The notes beneath the pieces are model-generated. The model was not told the DNA's origin. It saw nothing but the letters and a program-made list of their open reading frames with translations, and did not search any database. Below, piece after piece: positions 2,203 through 13,929 of a stretch of 64,000 nucleotides of DNA (its first letter is position 1; each line of letters starts with the position of its first letter). Source of the DNA: Streptomyces lienomycini (GTDB lineage: Bacteria; Actinomycetota; Actinomycetes; Streptomycetales; Streptomycetaceae); contig NZ_CP116257.1 in NCBI RefSeq assembly GCF_027947595.1, forward strand, positions 6,074,001-6,138,000, given 5' to 3'. Position numbers and translations under genes: made by a program.

Positions 2203-2832
2203 TCAGCGCCAGGCGTCGGGAACGCGCGCCAGTTGGACCAGCACGTCCCACTCCACCGGCCGGGCGTCCGGGTCCGCCCACGGCGCCCCGAGGGCCACCC
2301 AGTACCCGCGACGGGCCCTGATGCCCCGCAGCGCGTCCCAGTCCCCCGGTGTGCCGAGATCGTCGATCCCGGACTCGGCCCCACACGACGGACAGGCCGT
2401 CTCCGTGGGGGCCCCGTCACGCCAGAAGACTTCCCCCGAGAACCCGCAGATCCGGCACACGGTCTCGGTGCCGAGCGAGCCGCAGGAGACCCGATCCGCC
2501 ATCCGGCGGGCGCGATCGACCGGAGGGGGAGCGGGGGTACGCCACTGCGGTGGGATGTTCTCGAGTTGCCGGAGAACGTCCCAGTGCCTCGGCTTACGGC
2601 GGGGCCGCTCCCATCGGGCGCCGGACCCGAGCCACCAGCCCCGGAACGCGTGCAGCCCTTCCACTCCGCTCCACGCGCCGGGGGTCGCGCCCATGTCGCC
2701 GATGCCCGACTCGTTGCCGCAGCAGTCACAGACCGTGTTGGTCGGCCAGCCGGCCTCCCAGAACCTGTCCTCGTCGTATCCGCACATGCGGCAGAAGTCC
2801 TCAGCCGCGGGGACCGCTTCCTCCTCCGGCAT
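2203..2832 (-). CDS. Putative immunity protein, duplicated cysteine-rich domain
   Basis: The 209-residue product consists of two related halves. Each has a CxxCG knuckle, an FW pair, then a second CxxCG followed by ESGI, and a tail with a Trp-rich stretch and a WDVL-QL-PxxWR ending (first half about 10-100, second about 120-209). Eight cysteines in four CxxC pairs suggest two zinc-ribbon-like sites. Its ATG (2832-2830) directly follows the TAG of the large toxin gene, with no bases between, so translation is probably coupled. A small gene directly behind a polymorphic toxin normally encodes its cognate immunity protein, and I infer that role. The halves resemble CPCC-type cysteine-rich proteins. 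No signal peptide is present, fitting cytosolic protection. Confidence 0.7.
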   Translation of the reverse strand: MPEEEAVPAAEDFCRMCGYDEDRFWEAGWPTNTVCDCCGNESGIGDMGATPGAWSGVEGLHAFRGWWLGSGARWERPRRKPRHWDVLRQLENIPPQWRTPAPPPVDRARRMADRVSCGSLGTETVCRICGFSGEVFWRDGAPTETACPSCGAESGIDDLGTPGDWDALRGIRARRGYWVALGAPWADPDARPVEWDVLVQLARVPDAWR

Positions 2833-5800
2833 CTACCGCTCCGTTCCTTGCGCCTTCAGGTAGTCCTCCAGCGTCGGATAAGCATTCGGATCGTATCCGT
2901 AGGGGTTGGTGGCGCTCTTGGGCGCGGGGCGGTTCATGCTCATGGGCAGGTCGTCCTTGGTGAAGGCGGTGAGCGTGTTGCTGTTCTTCTCGTAGACGAT
3001 GTAGTTGCCGTTGCCGCGATCCCAGACGCGGTACCCCTGAGGCGGCTGCGGCAGCTTGGCCGCGTTGCGGTACCCGTGCGCCATCTCCACGTACTCCCTC
3101 GCGCTCCCCAGCTCCGGGAACTCCCCCCTGTGCTTCTTCCAGTGGATGAACGCGTTCTGTGCGTTGGTGTAGCCCTTCGAAGGCTTGCCGGTGGCCCAGA
3201 TGTGCGGAACCTTGCCGTTGGCCCGCATGGACTTGGCGAAGGCCTCGACGGCCGAGAAGCCCTTCTTGCCCCACTTCGTACCCGTGGCGCCCCAGCCGAC
3301 GATCGGGATGGCGGCGGCGCAGGAGAGGCTGGAGTTGAGGGCGTCGCCCTCCGCTCCGTACCAGCCGCAGTTGAGCAGGTCGAAGCCCTCGCCGAAGCCG
3401 GGGACCATGCCTGCCGCGTCCAGGAGGGTGTGGCCGATGGTGGCCATGTCCCACCAGTCGGCTTCCTCCTCGGCCGCCATGTCGGCGAAGGCGTCCTCCA
3501 GGCTCTCGAGCCCCTTGATGTCCTCGCGGTCCTGCTCCTCCAGCTTCTTGCGCTCCTGCTCGGCCTCCTCCCACGCCTTGGTGGCCCAGGCGAACAGCGC
3601 CTCGCTCATGGCCTCGGCGGCGGCGTCGGCGTCCTTGCCGGCGGCCTCCGCGGACGCGCGGGCCTCTCCCGCCGCCACCCAGGCGACGGCGGCCGAACCG
3701 GCGGCGGCGTCGGCCGAGACCTGCGCGCGGGCGGCGGAGTTGTCCGCGTCACGAGCGGCCCGGTGGGCGTCGGCCTCCGCGGCACGCGCGACCCTCGCCG
3801 ACTCGGCGGCGTCGGCGGCCGACCGCGCCGCGGCGTCGGCGGACGCGTCCGCGTCCTTGGCGTAGTCGGCGGCGTCCTGGGCCGAGTCCTGGGCCTGCTG
3901 CGCGTACTTCTTGGCGTCCTCGGCGGCGTTGTTGGCCGTCGCTGCGGCCCGGTGCGCTTCGGCGGCGTGCTTCTGGGCCGTCGCGGCGACCGCCGACGCG
4001 TCGGCGATCAGACCCTGCACCCGGGCCACATGGGTCGCCGTCAGCAGGTCCTTGCGCTTGGTCTCGTACTGCCCGGTCTCGATGAAGGCGTGCAGGACCT
4101 GCGGCGGACCCGCCAGCGCGATGCGGGCCCCGGCGGCGACCTCCGCCGTGCCCGACCCGGCGAGCTGGACGGCGACGACCCGCTCGTCCTGGGTGCGCTG
4201 CGCGTAGTACTCGCTGGTGATGAACTCACGCAGCGCGGCCGGGGAGCCGTCCGCGAGGGCGGCCTTGCCCGCCTTCACCACTCCGGCCCCGGCACCGTTC
4301 ATCAGCTGGGTGACGGTGACCCGGTAGTCGTTGGCCGCGGCCTTGTGCTGGCCGGTGGCCAGGAAGGCGGCTACCGTCGCCGCGTCCCCGGCGAGTGCCG
4401 TCTCCGCCGCCGCGCGAACGGCCTCGGACTCGGAGTGGGTGGCGAGCCGGTTGACGCGTGCCCGGTCGTCCAGCTCCTGAGCCTGGTCCCGACCGTCACG
4501 CACGTACGCGACGACGTCCTCGGCCGAACCGGCCAGGGCGACCTCGGCGGCGGCGACGCTCCACGGACCGCGCGTCTTCACCGTGTTCAGCGCGACCTTG
4601 CGCGCCTGAGGGGCGACCGCGGCGACGTCGACGTCCGGTTGACCGACCTCGGCGGCAAGACGGTCCGCCTCCTCCTCCAGCGCCTTGGACGCCTGGGCCT
4701 GCTCGGCCAGCTTCGTGGCGCGCTCGTCGTCGAGTTCCTTCAGCGAGCGTGCCTGCTCGATCGCTCCTGCCGTCCGGGCGGCCAGTTCCTCCTTCTCGAT
4801 CTCGCGCGCGAGGGTGAAGGTGGTCTGCGCCTTGGTGACCGCCGCGGTCGCCTCGTTGGCGGCGTCCTGGGCGGCGTTGGCGTGCTTCGTGGACTCGGCC
4901 GCCGCGGTCGCGGCGTCACCCGCGTGGTCGGCCGCGTCCTCAGCCGCCTTGGCGGCGTTCTCGGCGTGCTTCGCGGCCGAGTTGGCCGCGTCCCGGGCCT
5001 CGTAGGCGGCCTTGGCCGCCTTGCCCGCCAATGCCTCCGCCCGGTTCGCGGCGGCCGTGGCCTGGGCGGCGTGCCGGTGGGCCTCGGCCGCGGCTGCCCT
5101 GGCGCGTGCCGCCTGGGCGCTGGACACGCCGGCCTGGCCGCTCGCCGCCGACGCAGCACTGGCCGCGGCGTCCGCGTTGAGACCCGCGGAAGCCGCCGCC
5201 TTGGCGGCGTTGGCCGCCTCGGAGGCGGCCGTGCCGGCGTGGTCGGCGGCGGTCGCGGCCGTCTTCGCGCCCTTGGCTGCGTCCCGCGCGTCCTCGGCCG
5301 CCGCACGGGCGGCGGCCGCCTTCCCGGCGTCGGTCGCCGCGTCGGCCGCGGCCTTGCGGGCGTTGGACGCGGCCTGGGCCGCCGCGGCGGCGGCGGACGC
5401 GGCCTGGGCCGCGGCGTTGGCGGCCACACGCGCCGACGTGGTGGCGGCGTTCGCCGCGTCGATGGCCTGCTGAGCGGCCCGTGCCGCGCCGCGCGCCGCG
5501 TCGGCGGCCCTGCCCGCCGCGCTCGACGCCTTCTGCGCGTCGTTCTTGGCCGCCTCGGTCTCCTTGGCCGCCTTCTGCGCCGACTCCTTGGCGAGCCGGG
5601 TGGCCTCGACCGCGCGGGCCGACGCCTCCTTCGACTTCTCCGTCTCCGCCTTGGCCTGCCGTCCGGCCTCGGTGGCCCACTCGGCGAGCTGGGCGACGGT
5701 CGCCTGCTCCTGGTCGCGGGCCCGCGCGATGTACTGGCCGACCTCCAGGAACTCCCGGATGTCGTTGATGTCGCCGTTCATCGCCAGCCGGGCGGCCTCA

Positions 5801-6492
5801 CGGGTCGCCTCGCCGCCGGTGCTCATGATCTGGACGACCTGCACCCGGGCATCGTTGTCGGCGGCGGTGTACTGGCCGTCGTTGAGGAACTTCCGTACGT
5901 CCTCGATGGTGCCGTTGAGCGCCTTCTGACCGGCGGCCTTGACTCCCGGTCCGGACGCCGCCGAAATGATCTGCACGACCTGGACCCGCTGGTCCTGCTG
6001 GAGCGGAGCCTCCCAGCCGTCCTTGAGGAAGGCGTCCAGGTCCTCCGGGGTCCCGGCGAGTGCCTGCTGGGCGGCCGCACGTACCTCCCGCCCGCCCAGG
6101 GAGAGGATCTGTACGGCCTCCACCCGGTCGTCGCTGAGCTGTGCGACGGCGTTCTCACTGTCGAGGAACTTCCGCACGTCGTCGTCGGATCCGAGCAGCG
6201 CGACCTCGGCCGCGGCCTTCGCCGCCGGCCCTCCCGACTGCCACAGCTCCAGCACCCGACCCCGGTCGGTGGCCGGAATGTAGTCGGTCACCTCCTCGTC
6301 GTCCCCCAACTCGTCGAGGGCGGAGGCCGGCGCGGTGCTCAACGCGCCCAGCAGCAGGGCGGCGAGGAGGGTGAGGCACAGGGAGCGCAGCGCGGCGAGC
6401 CGCCATCGCGACCCGCGGATCGCGCCACCCGTGCGTACATGTCCATGGGTTCTGCGTCTTGTACTGACTATTCGACTCAAGAGTCCATTCAT
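2833..6492 (-). CDS. ALF-repeat polymorphic toxin with C-terminal nuclease-like domain
   Basis: This is a 1219-residue secreted protein. In order: a long basic signal peptide with hydrophobic core and APASA cleavage site (to about 58); four ALF repeats (about 80-255; for example EVALLGSDDDVRKFL); a very long Ala-rich coiled coil; four more ALF repeats (about 635-820); a second Ala-rich coiled coil; a pretoxin-like segment (PGFGEGFDLLNCGWYG, then IPIVGWGATGTKWGKK); and a C-terminal domain of about 130 residues. That last domain has HWKKHRGEF, SAREYVEMAHGY and a Gly-Asn-Tyr/VYEKN/AFTKD strand region, resembling RNase toxins of the Barnase-EndoU-colicin-RelE (BECR) fold. Catalytic activity is inferred. 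The ATG at 6492 has AGGA immediately adjacent, so the exact start is uncertain; TTG at 6480 is possible. Confidence 0.75.
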   Translation of the reverse strand: MNGLLSRIVSTRRRTHGHVRTGGAIRGSRWRLAALRSLCLTLLAALLLGALSTAPASALDELGDDEEVTDYIPATDRGRVLELWQSGGPAAKAAAEVALLGSDDDVRKFLDSENAVAQLSDDRVEAVQILSLGGREVRAAAQQALAGTPEDLDAFLKDGWEAPLQQDQRVQVVQIISAASGPGVKAAGQKALNGTIEDVRKFLNDGQYTAADNDARVQVVQIMSTGGEATREAARLAMNGDINDIREFLEVGQYIARARDQEQATVAQLAEWATEAGRQAKAETEKSKEASARAVEATRLAKESAQKAAKETEAAKNDAQKASSAAGRAADAARGAARAAQQAIDAANAATTSARVAANAAAQAASAAAAAAQAASNARKAAADAATDAGKAAAARAAAEDARDAAKGAKTAATAADHAGTAASEAANAAKAAASAGLNADAAASAASAASGQAGVSSAQAARARAAAAEAHRHAAQATAAANRAEALAGKAAKAAYEARDAANSAAKHAENAAKAAEDAADHAGDAATAAAESTKHANAAQDAANEATAAVTKAQTTFTLAREIEKEELAARTAGAIEQARSLKELDDERATKLAEQAQASKALEEEADRLAAEVGQPDVDVAAVAPQARKVALNTVKTRGPWSVAAAEVALAGSAEDVVAYVRDGRDQAQELDDRARVNRLATHSESEAVRAAAETALAGDAATVAAFLATGQHKAAANDYRVTVTQLMNGAGAGVVKAGKAALADGSPAALREFITSEYYAQRTQDERVVAVQLAGSGTAEVAAGARIALAGPPQVLHAFIETGQYETKRKDLLTATHVARVQGLIADASAVAATAQKHAAEAHRAAATANNAAEDAKKYAQQAQDSAQDAADYAKDADASADAAARSAADAAESARVARAAEADAHRAARDADNSAARAQVSADAAAGSAAVAWVAAGEARASAEAAGKDADAAAEAMSEALFAWATKAWEEAEQERKKLEEQDREDIKGLESLEDAFADMAAEEEADWWDMATIGHTLLDAAGMVPGFGEGFDLLNCGWYGAEGDALNSSLSCAAAIPIVGWGATGTKWGKKGFSAVEAFAKSMRANGKVPHIWATGKPSKGYTNAQNAFIHWKKHRGEFPELGSAREYVEMAHGYRNAAKLPQPPQGYRVWDRGNGNYIVYEKNSNTLTAFTKDDLPMSMNRPAPKSATNPYGYDPNAYPTLEDYLKAQGTER

Positions 6493-6675: not shown

Positions 6676-7224
6676 ATGCTCTCCCCCGACCGCATCCGTG
6701 ACCTCCTGCGCGAGCTGGACGACCCCGCGCACCTGGAACTCCCCGAGCACTACGACATCCCGGCCGCCCGTCAGCGCTTCGCGCGGCTCGCCGAGGCGCT
6801 GGGGCGGCGTTTCGGGCCGTCGGTGACGGTGGGCGGGGCGCAGGACGCCAGCTTCTACGGCTACGTCTCGGTTCCCGCCCCGGCCTCGGGGACGGACCGG
6901 ACCCTGTGGGTGCTGATCAGCAACTTCGGCCCCTTCGTCACCACCCGCACGGGCCGGGACTGGGGGGTGGCCGACTGCGAGGAGGGCCTCGACGACGCGT
7001 TCGTCGCCTGGCTCGACGAGCTGTGTACGGAGTTGTCCTGCGTGTACGTGCCCGTCACGTTGCTGCTGGAGCCGTACGACGGGCCGAGCCAGCTGGAGGA
7101 CGAGGAGATTCCCGAGGAGATCCTTGCCGCGCTCGCGGCCGAGTCCGGCGACCAGGACGACGACGCGGACGAGGACGAGGAGTTGCCCCTGGCCTGGTGG
7201 GACCGGTACTTCCAGTTCATGTGA
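6676..7224 (+). CDS. Conserved-looking protein of unknown function, acidic tail
   Basis: The product is 182 residues with no signal peptide, membrane segment or domain I recognise. It has a helical start (LLRELDDP), a middle that looks like beta strands (FYGYVSVP, LWVLISNFGPFVTT), then a Cys-containing helix (ADCEEGLDDAFVAWLDELCTELS). A strongly acidic tail (GDQDDDADEDEE) precedes the aromatic end WWDRYFQFM. AAGGA lies 9 bases or so before the ATG. It is divergent from the toxin gene and shares an upstream sequence element with the next gene at 7498. Its place between toxin and secreted cassette allows a second immunity or accessory role, but nothing in the sequence proves this. Confidence 0.7.
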   Translation: MLSPDRIRDLLRELDDPAHLELPEHYDIPAARQRFARLAEALGRRFGPSVTVGGAQDASFYGYVSVPAPASGTDRTLWVLISNFGPFVTTRTGRDWGVADCEEGLDDAFVAWLDELCTELSCVYVPVTLLLEPYDGPSQLEDEEIPEEILAALAAESGDQDDDADEDEELPLAWWDRYFQFM

Positions 7225-7497: not shown

Positions 7498-8031
7498 GTG
7501 AAGACACGCCGATTCCCCCGTTTCAGCAAGCCGCTCCTCGCCGGACTGCTCGCCGCCGGTGCCGTCACCGGCGCCTCCTCGCTCGCCTACGCGGTCAGCG
7601 CCTCCGACACCTCCACCGCCGCCACTCCCGCCCTGGCCGCGGCGGCGGCCGACGGCCCGGCCTACGCGGTCGAGGACTTCCAGCACCCCAACGCCGACCG
7701 CATCCTCGAGGAGAAGGGCATCACCCTCCACAAGGGGGACGGGCACATCTTCTTCGCCGAGTGCGACGGATCGCCGGAGCAGATCCAGGTCTGGACCCGC
7801 AAGAGCGCCGAAGGCACCTACTGCTTCCAGACCACCTCCACCACGGGCTTCCTCAGCCTCGAGGTGCCCGAGGTCTACGCCCTGCAGACCACGGACACGG
7901 CCGTGCACGCCGAACTGAGCGCGGACGGCAAGACCCAGGAGATCGAGCTGACCAAGAACGACTTCCAGGGCGTCGGCGAGGGCACCGGCGGTGCCTCCAC
8001 CGTCCTGCTGGAACTCCGCGTCACCGGCTGA
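7498..8031 (+). CDS. Small secreted protein, partner of the second pseudoprotease
   Basis: The 177-residue product has a Sec signal peptide (basic VKTRRFPRF, hydrophobic LLAGLLAAGAVTGASSL, cleavage after AYA near residue 33) and a mature domain of about 140 residues. The domain contains AVEDF, NADRIL, HKGDGHI, two cysteines (AEC, YCF) and the end LELRVTG. It is the complete paralogue of the truncated gene at 1-414. GTG 7498 is chosen because GGAAGGA precedes it by four bases and the signal peptide starts there. The trypsin-fold gene follows after 55 bases on the same strand, repeating the arrangement at the left edge. Function unknown; a secreted binding partner, inhibitor-like protein or folding aid for the neighbour are possibilities. 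Confidence 0.85.
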   Translation: MKTRRFPRFSKPLLAGLLAAGAVTGASSLAYAVSASDTSTAATPALAAAAADGPAYAVEDFQHPNADRILEEKGITLHKGDGHIFFAECDGSPEQIQVWTRKSAEGTYCFQTTSTTGFLSLEVPEVYALQTTDTAVHAELSADGKTQEIELTKNDFQGVGEGTGGASTVLLELRVTG

Positions 8032-8086
8032 CCCGACTCCCGACCGCCGTATCCCGCCGTCCCTCGAGAGGATCGAGTACCGACCC

Positions 8087-10216
8087 GTGTCACGACTTAG
8101 TTCCCGCGCCGCGATCACCGCGGGCCTGATGGCCACCGCCGTCGCCGCCAGCTGTCTCACCGCTGGCACCGCCCAGGCCGCCACCGGCCCGGCCAGTACG
8201 GCCAACGCCTACAACTTCACCGCCCGCCTGGACATGGGCGACGACCAGAGATCCTGCACCGGCGTGCTCGTCGCCTCCCAGTGGGTGGCCACCGCCGCCA
8301 GCTGCTTCGCCGACGACCTCGGCGCCGGTCCCGTCACCGCGGGCAAGCCCAAGTGGAGAACCACGGCCTGGTTCCCCATAGACCCGAATCCCGACGGCCC
8401 CGGCGGCGCCAGCAAGCCCGTCGAGATCGTCGAGCTGGTCCCCCGCACCGACCGCGACATGGTCCTGGCCCGCCTCGCGGCGCCCGCGGGCGGCCCCACC
8501 GTCCCGTTCGCCACCACCGCGCCCACCGCGGGCGAGGAACTGACGGCCGTCGGGTTCGGCCGGACCAAGGACGCGTGGGTGCCCGACACCCGGCACACGG
8601 CCGCCTTCACCGTCCAGTCCGTCTCCGGCACCACGCTCGCCCTCGACGGCAAGACCGACGACGACGCCATCTGCGCCGGCGACGCCGGCGGCCCCCTGCT
8701 GCGGCAGAAGGACGGCAAGTTCGAACTCGTCGCCCTCGCCAGCCAGTCCTGGCAGGGCGGCTGCTGGGGCTCCGACCCGGCCGAGACCCGCAACGACGCC
8801 GTGTCACCGCGCCTCGACAACATCGTCGGGGGCGACACCCTCGCGCCCGGCACCGTTCTCCACGCCGAGGACAGCCTCACCTCCAACGCCGCCCGCCTCA
8901 CCCTGAAGGCCGACGGCAACCTGGTCGTCGTCTCCAACGCCGGCAAGACCCTGTGGTCCACCGGCACCGCGGGCCACCCCGGCGCCACCGCCCGGTTCGA
9001 CACCAACGGCAACCTCGCCGTCCTCGACGCCGACGGCAGCACCGTCCTGTGGGAGTCGAAGACGACCGCGCCCGGCGGCACGGCCGTCCTCCAGGACCGC
9101 GGCAACTTCGTCATCCGCGACGCCCAGGGCGCGTCCCGGTGGGCCGCGGGCACCGAGATCCGCCACGACTACAACGGCGACGGCCGCAGCGACCTGGCCG
9201 AGTGGTACGACTACGGCGACGGCCACGACGAGATCCACACCTTCTCCGCGAAGGCCGACGGCGGCTTCAACGCCCCCGCGCACGCGTGGAGCGTCCTGCC
9301 CGGGAACTACTGGGCCGAGAACATGAAGCGCTTCACCGGCGACTTCAACGGGGACGGCCGCGGGGACGTCGCCGCCTTCTACGGCTACTCCAACGGCGAC
9401 GTCGGCCTGATCACCTGGCTCAGCCTGGGCGGCGGCCTCTTCTCCGAGCCGCAGCACTCCTGGAAGACCACCTCGGGCTGGTCGTTCGACCGCATGACGG
9501 TCAACTCCGGCGACTTCGACGGCGACGGGCGCGACGACGTCGCCGTCTGGTACGACTACGCCGACGGCGGCGACAAGCTCCACACCTTCCTCGCCAAGGC
9601 CGACGGCGGCTTCGCCAGCCCCTTCGCGTCCTTCACGCGCACCGAGGGCTGGACCGCCTCGCACATGAAGTTCAGCACCGGCGACTTCAACGGCGACGGC
9701 CGTGACGACCTCGCCGCCCTCTACGGCTACGCCACCGGCGAAGTGCGGATCATCACGTTCCCCGCCACTGCCGACGGCGGCTTCGTCAACACGCCCGTCA
9801 ACGGCTGGAGCACCACCGGCTGGAACTTCGACGCCGCCAGCCTCCACTCCGGCGACTTCGACGGCGACGGCCGCGACGACCTCGCCGCCTGGTACGACTA
9901 CGGCGACGGCCACGACGCCGTGATCGGCTTCACCGCCGACGCCACGGGCAAGTTCGGCAACCGCACCGAGCTGTGGACCGTCGCGCCCGACAACTACTAC
10001 CGCGAGCGGATGCAGATCGTCACCGGCGACTACAACGGCGACGGCCGCGACGACCTGGCCACCCTCTACGGCTACTCGGACGGCCGGGTCAAGACCATCA
10101 CCTGGACCGCCAAGGCCGACGGCACCCTCAACTCCCCGCTGCACAGCTGGGAGATCGCCAGCGGCTGGACGTTCGACCGCATGCACATGATCGAGCGCTA
10201 CAACAGCCCCGCCTGA
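8087..10216 (+). CDS. Secreted trypsin-fold pseudoprotease with B-lectin and FG-GAP repeats
   Basis: The 709-residue product has a Sec signal peptide (ending AQAA near 32), an S1 trypsin-like domain (about 35-250), a bulb-type (mannose-binding type) lectin domain (about 255-360) and six FG-GAP/VCBS repeats (about 365-705). As in the paralogue at 453, TAAHC reads TAASC (Ser72) and GDSGGP reads GDAGGP (Ala200), leaving only Asp124 of the triad. The lectin part has three strands of the type LKADGNLVV, FDTNGNLAV and QDRGNFVI. The repeats alternate WYDYGDG and YGYSNG variants, each with a D-NGDGR-D loop. The likely role is glycan or surface binding outside the cell. GTG 8087 opens the signal peptide; a GAGAGGA lies 14 bases upstream. 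Confidence 0.85.
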   Translation: MSRLSSRAAITAGLMATAVAASCLTAGTAQAATGPASTANAYNFTARLDMGDDQRSCTGVLVASQWVATAASCFADDLGAGPVTAGKPKWRTTAWFPIDPNPDGPGGASKPVEIVELVPRTDRDMVLARLAAPAGGPTVPFATTAPTAGEELTAVGFGRTKDAWVPDTRHTAAFTVQSVSGTTLALDGKTDDDAICAGDAGGPLLRQKDGKFELVALASQSWQGGCWGSDPAETRNDAVSPRLDNIVGGDTLAPGTVLHAEDSLTSNAARLTLKADGNLVVVSNAGKTLWSTGTAGHPGATARFDTNGNLAVLDADGSTVLWESKTTAPGGTAVLQDRGNFVIRDAQGASRWAAGTEIRHDYNGDGRSDLAEWYDYGDGHDEIHTFSAKADGGFNAPAHAWSVLPGNYWAENMKRFTGDFNGDGRGDVAAFYGYSNGDVGLITWLSLGGGLFSEPQHSWKTTSGWSFDRMTVNSGDFDGDGRDDVAVWYDYADGGDKLHTFLAKADGGFASPFASFTRTEGWTASHMKFSTGDFNGDGRDDLAALYGYATGEVRIITFPATADGGFVNTPVNGWSTTGWNFDAASLHSGDFDGDGRDDLAAWYDYGDGHDAVIGFTADATGKFGNRTELWTVAPDNYYRERMQIVTGDYNGDGRDDLATLYGYSDGRVKTITWTAKADGTLNSPLHSWEIASGWTFDRMHMIERYNSPA

Positions 10217-12975: not shown

Positions 12976-13929
12976 GTGTCCGCAGTCGCACCCGACGGAC
13001 GCAAGATGCTGCGCCTGGAGGTCCGCAACAGCCAGACCCCCATCGAGCGCAAGCCCGAGTGGATCAAGACCCGGGCGAAAATGGGCCCCGAGTACACCAA
13101 GATGCAGAACCTCGTGAAGAGCGAGGGCCTGCACACGGTCTGCCAGGAAGCCGGCTGTCCCAACATCTACGAGTGCTGGGAGGACCGCGAGGCGACCTTC
13201 CTCATCGGTGGCGACCAGTGCACGCGGCGCTGCGACTTCTGCCAGATCGACACGGGCAGGCCCGAGGCGCTCGACCGCGACGAGCCGCGGCGCGTCGGGG
13301 AGTCCGTGGTCACCATGGACCTGAACTACGCCACCATCACCGGCGTCGCCCGCGACGACCTCCCGGACGGCGGCGCCTGGCTGTACGCGGAGACGGTGCG
13401 CCAGATCCACCAGCAGACGGCGGACCGCGAGGCGGGCCGCACCAAGGTGGAGCTGCTGGCCCCCGACTTCAACGCGGTGCCGGAGCTGCTGCGGGAGGTC
13501 TTCGACTCCCGCCCCGAGGTCTTCGCGCACAACGTCGAGACGGTCCCGCGGATCTTCAAGCGGATCCGCCCCGGCTTCCGCTACGAGCGCTCGCTGAAGG
13601 TCATCACCGACGCCCGTGACTACGGTCTGGTCACCAAGTCGAACCTGATCCTCGGCATGGGCGAGACCCGCGAGGAGATCAGCGAGGCGCTGAAGCAGCT
13701 GCACGACGCCGGCTGCGAGCTGATCACCATCACGCAGTACCTGCGCCCGTCCGTGCGCCACCACCCCGTGGAGCGCTGGGTCAAGCCGCAGGAGTTCGTG
13801 GAGCTGAAGGAGGAGGCCGAGCAGCTCGGCTTCTCCGGTGTGATGTCGGGTCCGCTGGTGCGTTCGTCCTACCGGGCCGGGCGGCTGTACGGAATGGCCA
13901 TGGAGCAGCGCCGGTCCGCCACCGTGTGA
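12976..13929 (+). CDS. lipA: Lipoyl synthase LipA
   Basis: LipA is a radical-SAM enzyme that inserts two sulfur atoms into protein-bound octanoyl groups, completing the lipoyl cofactor begun by LipB. The 317-residue product has the auxiliary-cluster motif [12 protein letters not shown] (Cx4Cx5C) and the radical-SAM motif CTRRCDFC (Cx3Cx2C), then the expected NVETVPR and LGMGE blocks and the C-terminal VRSSYRAG segment. The start is GTG 12976, with AGGGAGC at 12964-12970; an upstream in-frame stretch lacks family similarity. It lies downstream of lipB on the same strand, fitting a shared pathway. Confidence 0.96.

Follow-up and report, generated by a model that had tools for sequence, protein, structure and literature searches.

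Umbrella toxin particles were described in 2024 (Zhao et al.; PMC11062931) and extended in 2025 (PMC13274773), and according to the available text of the former they are secreted weapons used against related species, with 77 Umb toxin families catalogued. In the cryo-EM structure reported there, the ALF repeats of UmbC form a crown ring that docks UmbB, while UmbA joins lectin domains to an inactive trypsin fold and grips the N-terminus of UmbB, which bears the residues Ala-Val-Glu-Asp (PMC11062931). The umbC stalk carries the toxin, the immunity gene umbD may follow umbC, and the presence of umbB within ten genes is used as the criterion for an umbrella locus (PMC11062931). Here, a locus of Streptomyces lienomycini is compared with these systems. 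It lies at positions 2203-6492 of a 64,000-nucleotide stretch (NZ_CP116257.1, positions 6,074,001 to 6,138,000; referred to as the window), which is part of a 7.86-Mb genome consisting of a single contig (C1 below). Positions 2203-6492 very probably represent the umbC-umbD core of a Streptomyces umbrella toxin locus, including a toxic tip and an immunity protein. The named relatives of the locus genes are from Streptomyces, except for one distant toxin relative in Pseudomonas. The system is already known, and neither the toxin nor the immunity family is claimed as new.

A first-pass annotation of the window had placed an ALF-repeat polymorphic toxin at this position and regarded it as an incompletely described system built on repeats without an assigned function. 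Both of the latter statements are out of date, as umbrella particles have a cryo-EM structure in which ALF is the UmbB-docking ring of UmbC (PMC11062931), although Pfam still labels the repeats as before. A gene with repeats of "unknown function" is thereby placed in a structurally known particle system, with an enzymatic tip that can be tested.

The UmbC scaffold

The open reading frame (ORF) at 2833-6492 of the minus strand encodes 1219 residues and is free of internal stops. Eight ALF stretches are found in the product (Pfam PF03752, E 2e-78), four at residues 77-256 and four at residues 638-810, with Ala-rich stretches between and after the blocks, so that ORF and Pfam data confirm the two four-repeat blocks and Ala-rich stretches annotated at first. 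No Pfam family other than ALF is matched by the whole protein at E 1, and nothing was returned from NCBIfam or PADLOC. Residues 27-990 match PDB 8w20 (E 1.7e-184), which we take to be the UmbC scaffold of Umb1; the PDB names this chain "Intein C-terminal splicing domain-containing protein". Two extended stalk segments, probably coiled-coil, fit this alignment. The features of the core are as follows:

2833-6492, minus: umbC, scaffold and toxin of the umbrella particle, 1219 residues (ALF PF03752, 2e-78; PDB 8w20, 1.7e-184)
6316-6492, minus: signal-sequence-like N-terminus of UmbC, residues 1-59 (sequence, by eye)
5725-6264, minus: ALF1-ALF4, residues 77-256, half of the crown ring (ALF matches)
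4582-5724, minus: first Ala-rich coiled-coil stalk segment, about residues 257-637 (sequence; aligns with the Umb1 stalk)
4063-4581, minus: ALF5-ALF8, residues 638-810, other half of the ring (ALF matches)
3508-4062, minus: second Ala-rich stalk segment, about residues 811-995 (sequence; the 8w20 match reaches residue 990)
3226-3465, minus: linker or pretoxin-like segment, about residues 1010-1089 (alike by eye in relatives with the same toxin; no Pfam match)
2836-3225, minus: BECR-fold toxin tip, residues 1090-1219, with H1117, H1121-x-x-E1124 and S1185-x-x-R1188
2203-2832, minus: umbD, putative immunity protein, 209 residues, two tandem CxxC-CxxC units (sequence; toxin linkage)

In Umb1, UmbB docks on ALF2, ALF3, ALF4, ALF7 and ALF8, resulting in a five-spoked particle, and the I4Q substitution in ALF2, which introduces the Gln found in ALF6, abolishes UmbB1 binding (PMC11062931). 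Position 4 was taken as the residue after a conserved Arg, with the register read from the 8w20 alignment, which was inspected residue by residue over 27-809. The docking position in this UmbC is occupied by Val in ALF2, ALF3, ALF4, ALF7 and ALF8; ALF6 has Ala there, ALF1 has Gly, and ALF5 is without an equivalent Arg. As read from these residues, the pattern is that of Umb1, and a five-spoked particle is hence the natural inference for this UmbC. The N-terminus was compared by eye with the twin-arginine translocation (TAT) signal of umbrella UmbC proteins, and residues 1-59 show a basic start with RRR at 12-14, a hydrophobic stretch and APASA. The segment at about residues 1010-1089, formerly labeled pretoxin-like, looks alike by eye in the tails of relatives with the same toxin; the label is left unconfirmed by Pfam, which gives no match there at E 0.1 (piece 1025-1219, window 2836-3420) or at E 1 (whole UmbC).

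The genome encodes four UmbC frames with 31 ALF matches, together with four UmbB and six UmbA matches. The four UmbC proteins align over ring and stalk with 36-54% identity (best segment per pair), yet no paralogue alignment passes residue 980 of this protein, and its final 240 residues are unmatched at E 0.01 in the three other tails, as expected of polymorphic toxins, where the ring and stalk are alike and the tails unshared. Repeats and a long stalk would, taken alone, permit a non-toxin role for an ALF-repeat protein, at the surface or in adhesion. However, a C-terminus that differs from those of three paralogues with alike rings and stalks, the linkage of toxin and immunity genes across genomes (discussed below), and the solved homologue being a secreted toxin particle (PMC11062931) make such a role highly improbable. 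The unshared tail and the linkage likewise support the polymorphic toxin with an adjacent immunity gene that was annotated at first. The idea of a delivery or surface-extension scaffold was near in spirit to the umbrella assignment, but umbrella particles are secreted complexes of several proteins, and homologues of the other parts are encoded alongside.

The other UmbC genes, with differing C-termini, are located at C1:2393-2397 kb, 2415-2419 kb and 6981-6985 kb. The proteins encoded at 2416 and 6981 kb have about 105 residues in common at the start of the tail (42% identity) and then diverge, and the latter carries a pretoxin HINT domain (PT-HINT, 9.3e-15). The nearest UmbB match lies about 19 kb from the umbC at 2416 kb, and none is near the one at 6981 kb.

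The toxin tip

Structure matches of an AlphaFold2 model of the tip (mean predicted local distance difference test score, pLDDT, 83.3) support a BECR fold and include 8ey4_A and colicin D. The modeled tip is thus of the BECR fold, in keeping with the BECR-like C-terminus that had been annotated and for which structure prediction and a profile search of the C-terminal domain had been named as checks. By profile search, the tip matches the toxin chain of 8ey4 with E 1.3e-18, and Foldseek aligns the two at 1.2e-6 with 35% identity. The 8ey4 entry is a toxin-immunity complex for contact-dependent inhibition (CDI) from Escherichia coli O32:H37, and the motifs HxxE and [ST]xx[RK] are common to both toxins; unlike UmbC, the E. 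coli protein is described in the entry title as a CDI toxin and is without an ALF stalk. All 12 rows of the toxin alignment have HxxE, and 11 of the 12 have [ST]xxR. PHROGs gave a single match, to the toxin tip (E 0.086). When proteins were searched with the toxin part of the 1219-residue product, none of 270 candidates matched at E 0.001, which is attributed to the limit of that search, since searches of genome DNA did give relatives.

The tip is probably an RNase, as judged from the modeled fold, and its target is fairly likely to be tRNA. The colicin D signature comprises [KH]K, Hxx[ED], [ST] and [TS]xxK (PMC3482391, in the available text). Compared with it, the tip has R for K in [ST]xxR, the [KH] position is taken by H1117, and the following K is replaced by W or F. 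One of the colicin D lysine positions is thus W in this tip, which, along with low-Z matches to the RelE and HigB chains, BECR relatives that cut rRNA or mRNA, would be in line with an umbrella UmbC whose tip is not a tRNase, but cuts rRNA or mRNA or has lost its activity. BECR substrates are also hard to predict from sequence or fold (PMC9086364, in the available text). This variant within the umbrella assignment is considered rather unlikely, and a tRNA-cutting tip on an umbrella UmbC is preferred.

The putative immunity protein UmbD and its linkage to the toxin

As annotated at first, the putative immunity gene starts directly after the umbC stop, with TAG (2833-2835) abutting the ATG (2830-2832) of the 209-residue ORF at 2203-2832 (minus strand). 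UmbD consists of two units (2530-2811 and 2206-2490) that are 48% identical and contain two CxxC pairs each. For UmbD, the matches from Pfam and NCBIfam were confined to zinc-ribbon types and stayed below the cut-offs, and PADLOC gave none. The structure model (65.9) is unreliable, and its sole structure match is at E 9.2. Eighteen proteins are related to UmbD by sequence, and each of the 11 with a named organism comes from Streptomyces. Neither half of UmbD is resolved in a tree of 13 immunity units.

Relatives of toxin and immunity protein were searched in the genome DNA of 392 Streptomyces genomes. The toxin was found in nine of these and an immunity relative in 41, some of the latter being weak (to E 9.6e-4); all nine toxin-bearing genomes also have an immunity relative. 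In 11 of 12 toxin matches, an immunity match adjoins on the same strand, and the twelfth is a toxin fragment. The frame directly behind the toxin is a CxxC-CxxC unit in 10 of 10 Streptomyces loci, with a fused double unit in L056, a single unit in seven loci and separate tandem genes in L063 and L065. When 396 genomes from across the phylum were searched by profile, the own genome was recovered, along with one weak match from another genus (1.7e-4, L068). At L064 of Streptomyces ureilyticus, a stalkless frame of 121 residues with the toxin domain (4776-5141) and then an immunity unit stand behind a partial umbC match, and this frame looks like a displaced orphan toxin cassette.

The remaining 32 genomes with an immunity relative have no toxin match. 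Stand-alone immunity loci were covered for 22 of these 32 genomes (among L028-L055), and the toxin is absent within 3.1-3.6 kb in all 22. The upstream frames were viewed by eye in 21 of the 22 loci and for an extra copy in a toxin-bearing genome (L037); where they include a likely gene, it is neither ALF nor toxin, and several of these genes resemble regulators by eye.

It might be argued that the 2203-2832 product is a zinc-binding regulator or export helper, as it matches no immunity family, its relatives are present in genomes and loci without the toxin, and some genes upstream of the stand-alone units are regulator-like. However, relatives are found directly downstream of the toxin in each of the 10 Streptomyces loci, including the orphan cassette of L064, and the distant toxin relatives of E. 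coli (8ey4) and Pseudomonas brassicacearum (L066) are also paired with a Cys-rich protein. The stand-alone copies are also compatible with orphan immunity genes, which is what they look like. A regulator or helper is therefore considered improbable, and the product probably protects the producer as an immunity protein. The pair raises the possibility that orphan Cys-rich genes elsewhere in Streptomyces confer resistance to umbrella toxins.

Through the toxin-immunity pair, the umbrella toxin is tied to a CDI toxin whose structure is solved, and the comparison extends to the immunity side. Chain I, the partner in 8ey4, is also a small Cys-rich protein, but it belongs to Cys_rich_CPCC (PF14206), which UmbD does not match. 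In P. brassicacearum (L066), a frame of at least 3084 residues ends in a toxin relative (38% identity) and is followed by a PF14206 CPCC protein (2.6e-28). Like UmbD, CPCC proteins have two CxxC-type knuckles and, in L066, adjoin a toxin relative; at E 1, PF14206 is matched neither by UmbD nor by four relatives (L057, L063, L060, P0022). With small alignments, hhalign gave a probability of 29 for UmbD units against CPCC, and, when reversed, 28 over only 10 columns. With 45 units against 78 CPCC proteins the probability was 89, local to the cysteine knuckles, and 36 when a global alignment was forced. In a PDB profile search with the UmbD units, knuckles of release factor and rubredoxin ranked first, and CPCC chains were absent up to E 5. 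What can be said is that UmbD and the CPCC partners share the use of Cys-rich knuckles against one toxin family, whether or not they are kin. A joint reading goes further: the Cys-rich units would be an undescribed immunity family whose deep ancestry is shared with the CPCC immunity proteins of CdiA systems, the toxin-immunity pair would have been exchanged between CDI in Gram-negatives and umbrella particles in Gram-positives with the immunity protein diverging beyond sequence recognition, the doubled UmbD would neutralize two toxin variants, and the stand-alone Streptomyces units would be acquired resistance to this umbrella toxin. Taken as a whole, it is doubtful.

Flanking genes and comparison with known systems

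The umbC gene is flanked on both sides by umbB-umbA pairs, at 1-2024 and 7498-10216 of the plus strand, which were absent from the first-pass annotation:

1-414, plus: umbB copy a, AVED motif, 5' end before the window (genome match C1:6073914-6074411)
414-2024, plus: umbA copy a, inactive trypsin fold (TAASC, GDAGGP) and FG-GAP propeller
7498-8031, plus: umbB copy b, AVED motif
8087-10216, plus: umbA copy b, inactive trypsin fold, B_lectin and FG-GAP propeller; start codon estimated

The assignments as UmbA and UmbB are based on motif, domain order and gene neighborhood. Both UmbB homologues contain the AVED motif and are encoded within ten genes of umbC. Both UmbA homologues match trypsin PF00089 (3.6e-17 and 6.6e-16) and FG-GAP, and copy b additionally B_lectin. 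In both, other residues stand in place of the usual trypsin His and Ser (TAASC and GDAGGP, which we take to be the positions of His57 and Ser195). Among the 11 relative loci, seven have an UmbB match and four an UmbA match in the DNA covered; L057 and L063 (which start at contig ends), L064 and L066 have neither. The closest relative, L056 (88% toxin identity), has umbB and umbA on one side of umbC, and no second pair in the 9 kb behind the toxin. On an 18-kb stretch of Streptomyces sp. SID12488 (L060, 3840-13918), two umb loci follow one another, each with an UmbB and an UmbA match, and only an N-terminal match is listed for the second umbC (13094-13918).

A 322-base block (845-1166 and 8497-8818) is common to the two umbA copies and shows two differences over the 318 bases counted, while the DNA-alignable stretch of the two pairs, block included, has 77.9% identity over 1177 columns. 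The block stops where the lectin parts start to differ, which fits recent gene conversion and lectin exchange by recombination. Such an exchange is in line with the lectin diversification described for umbrella toxins in 2025 (PMC13274773, in the available text). In the FG-GAP part of umbA copy a, a tandem unit of 162 bases (54 residues) is present in 3.4 copies with 96% matches (1362-1910), an array that, judged by its repeats, is a recent propeller expansion.

A 182-residue ORF is located between umbC and umbB copy b (6676-7224, plus). It was rejected as part of the system, as its product has no family match over the cut-off. Further points against it are that tblastn gave no match at 1e-5 in the 11 relative loci, some of which end at contig ends, and that a 51% paralogue exists elsewhere in the genome (C1:6418913-6419452).

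By analogy with the described particles, UmbC would be exported and its eight ALF repeats would close into a ring, on which ALF2, ALF3, ALF4, ALF7 and ALF8 would each dock one UmbB adaptor. The N-terminal AVED of UmbB would sit in the dead active-site cleft of the inactive-trypsin UmbA, and the UmbA lectin domain would bind surface glycans of related species. The coiled-coil stalk would hold the C-terminal tip, a predicted colicin D-like BECR ribonuclease, which would cleave RNA once inside the target, with tRNA as the most likely substrate, and UmbD, encoded directly behind umbC, may protect the producer by binding the tip.

Apart from the CDI complex, the colicin D tRNase domain (PDB 1v74, 5znm) is among the known systems closest to the tip. 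What is notable in this locus is the doubled immunity protein, the orphan immunity genes and the extra umbB-umbA pair. Among the tips described for umbrella toxins, UmbC1 has a deaminase and UmbC3 a lipid II phosphatase, and 4TM tox is a further one (PMC11062931). Unlike Umb1-Umb3 of Streptomyces coelicolor (PDB 8w20, 8w22; PMC11062931, PMC13274773, in the available texts), the locus analyzed here has a CDI/colicin D-like BECR tip, its putative immunity protein is a Cys-rich double unit rather than Imm1 or Imm88, and a single umbC stands between two umbB-umbA pairs.
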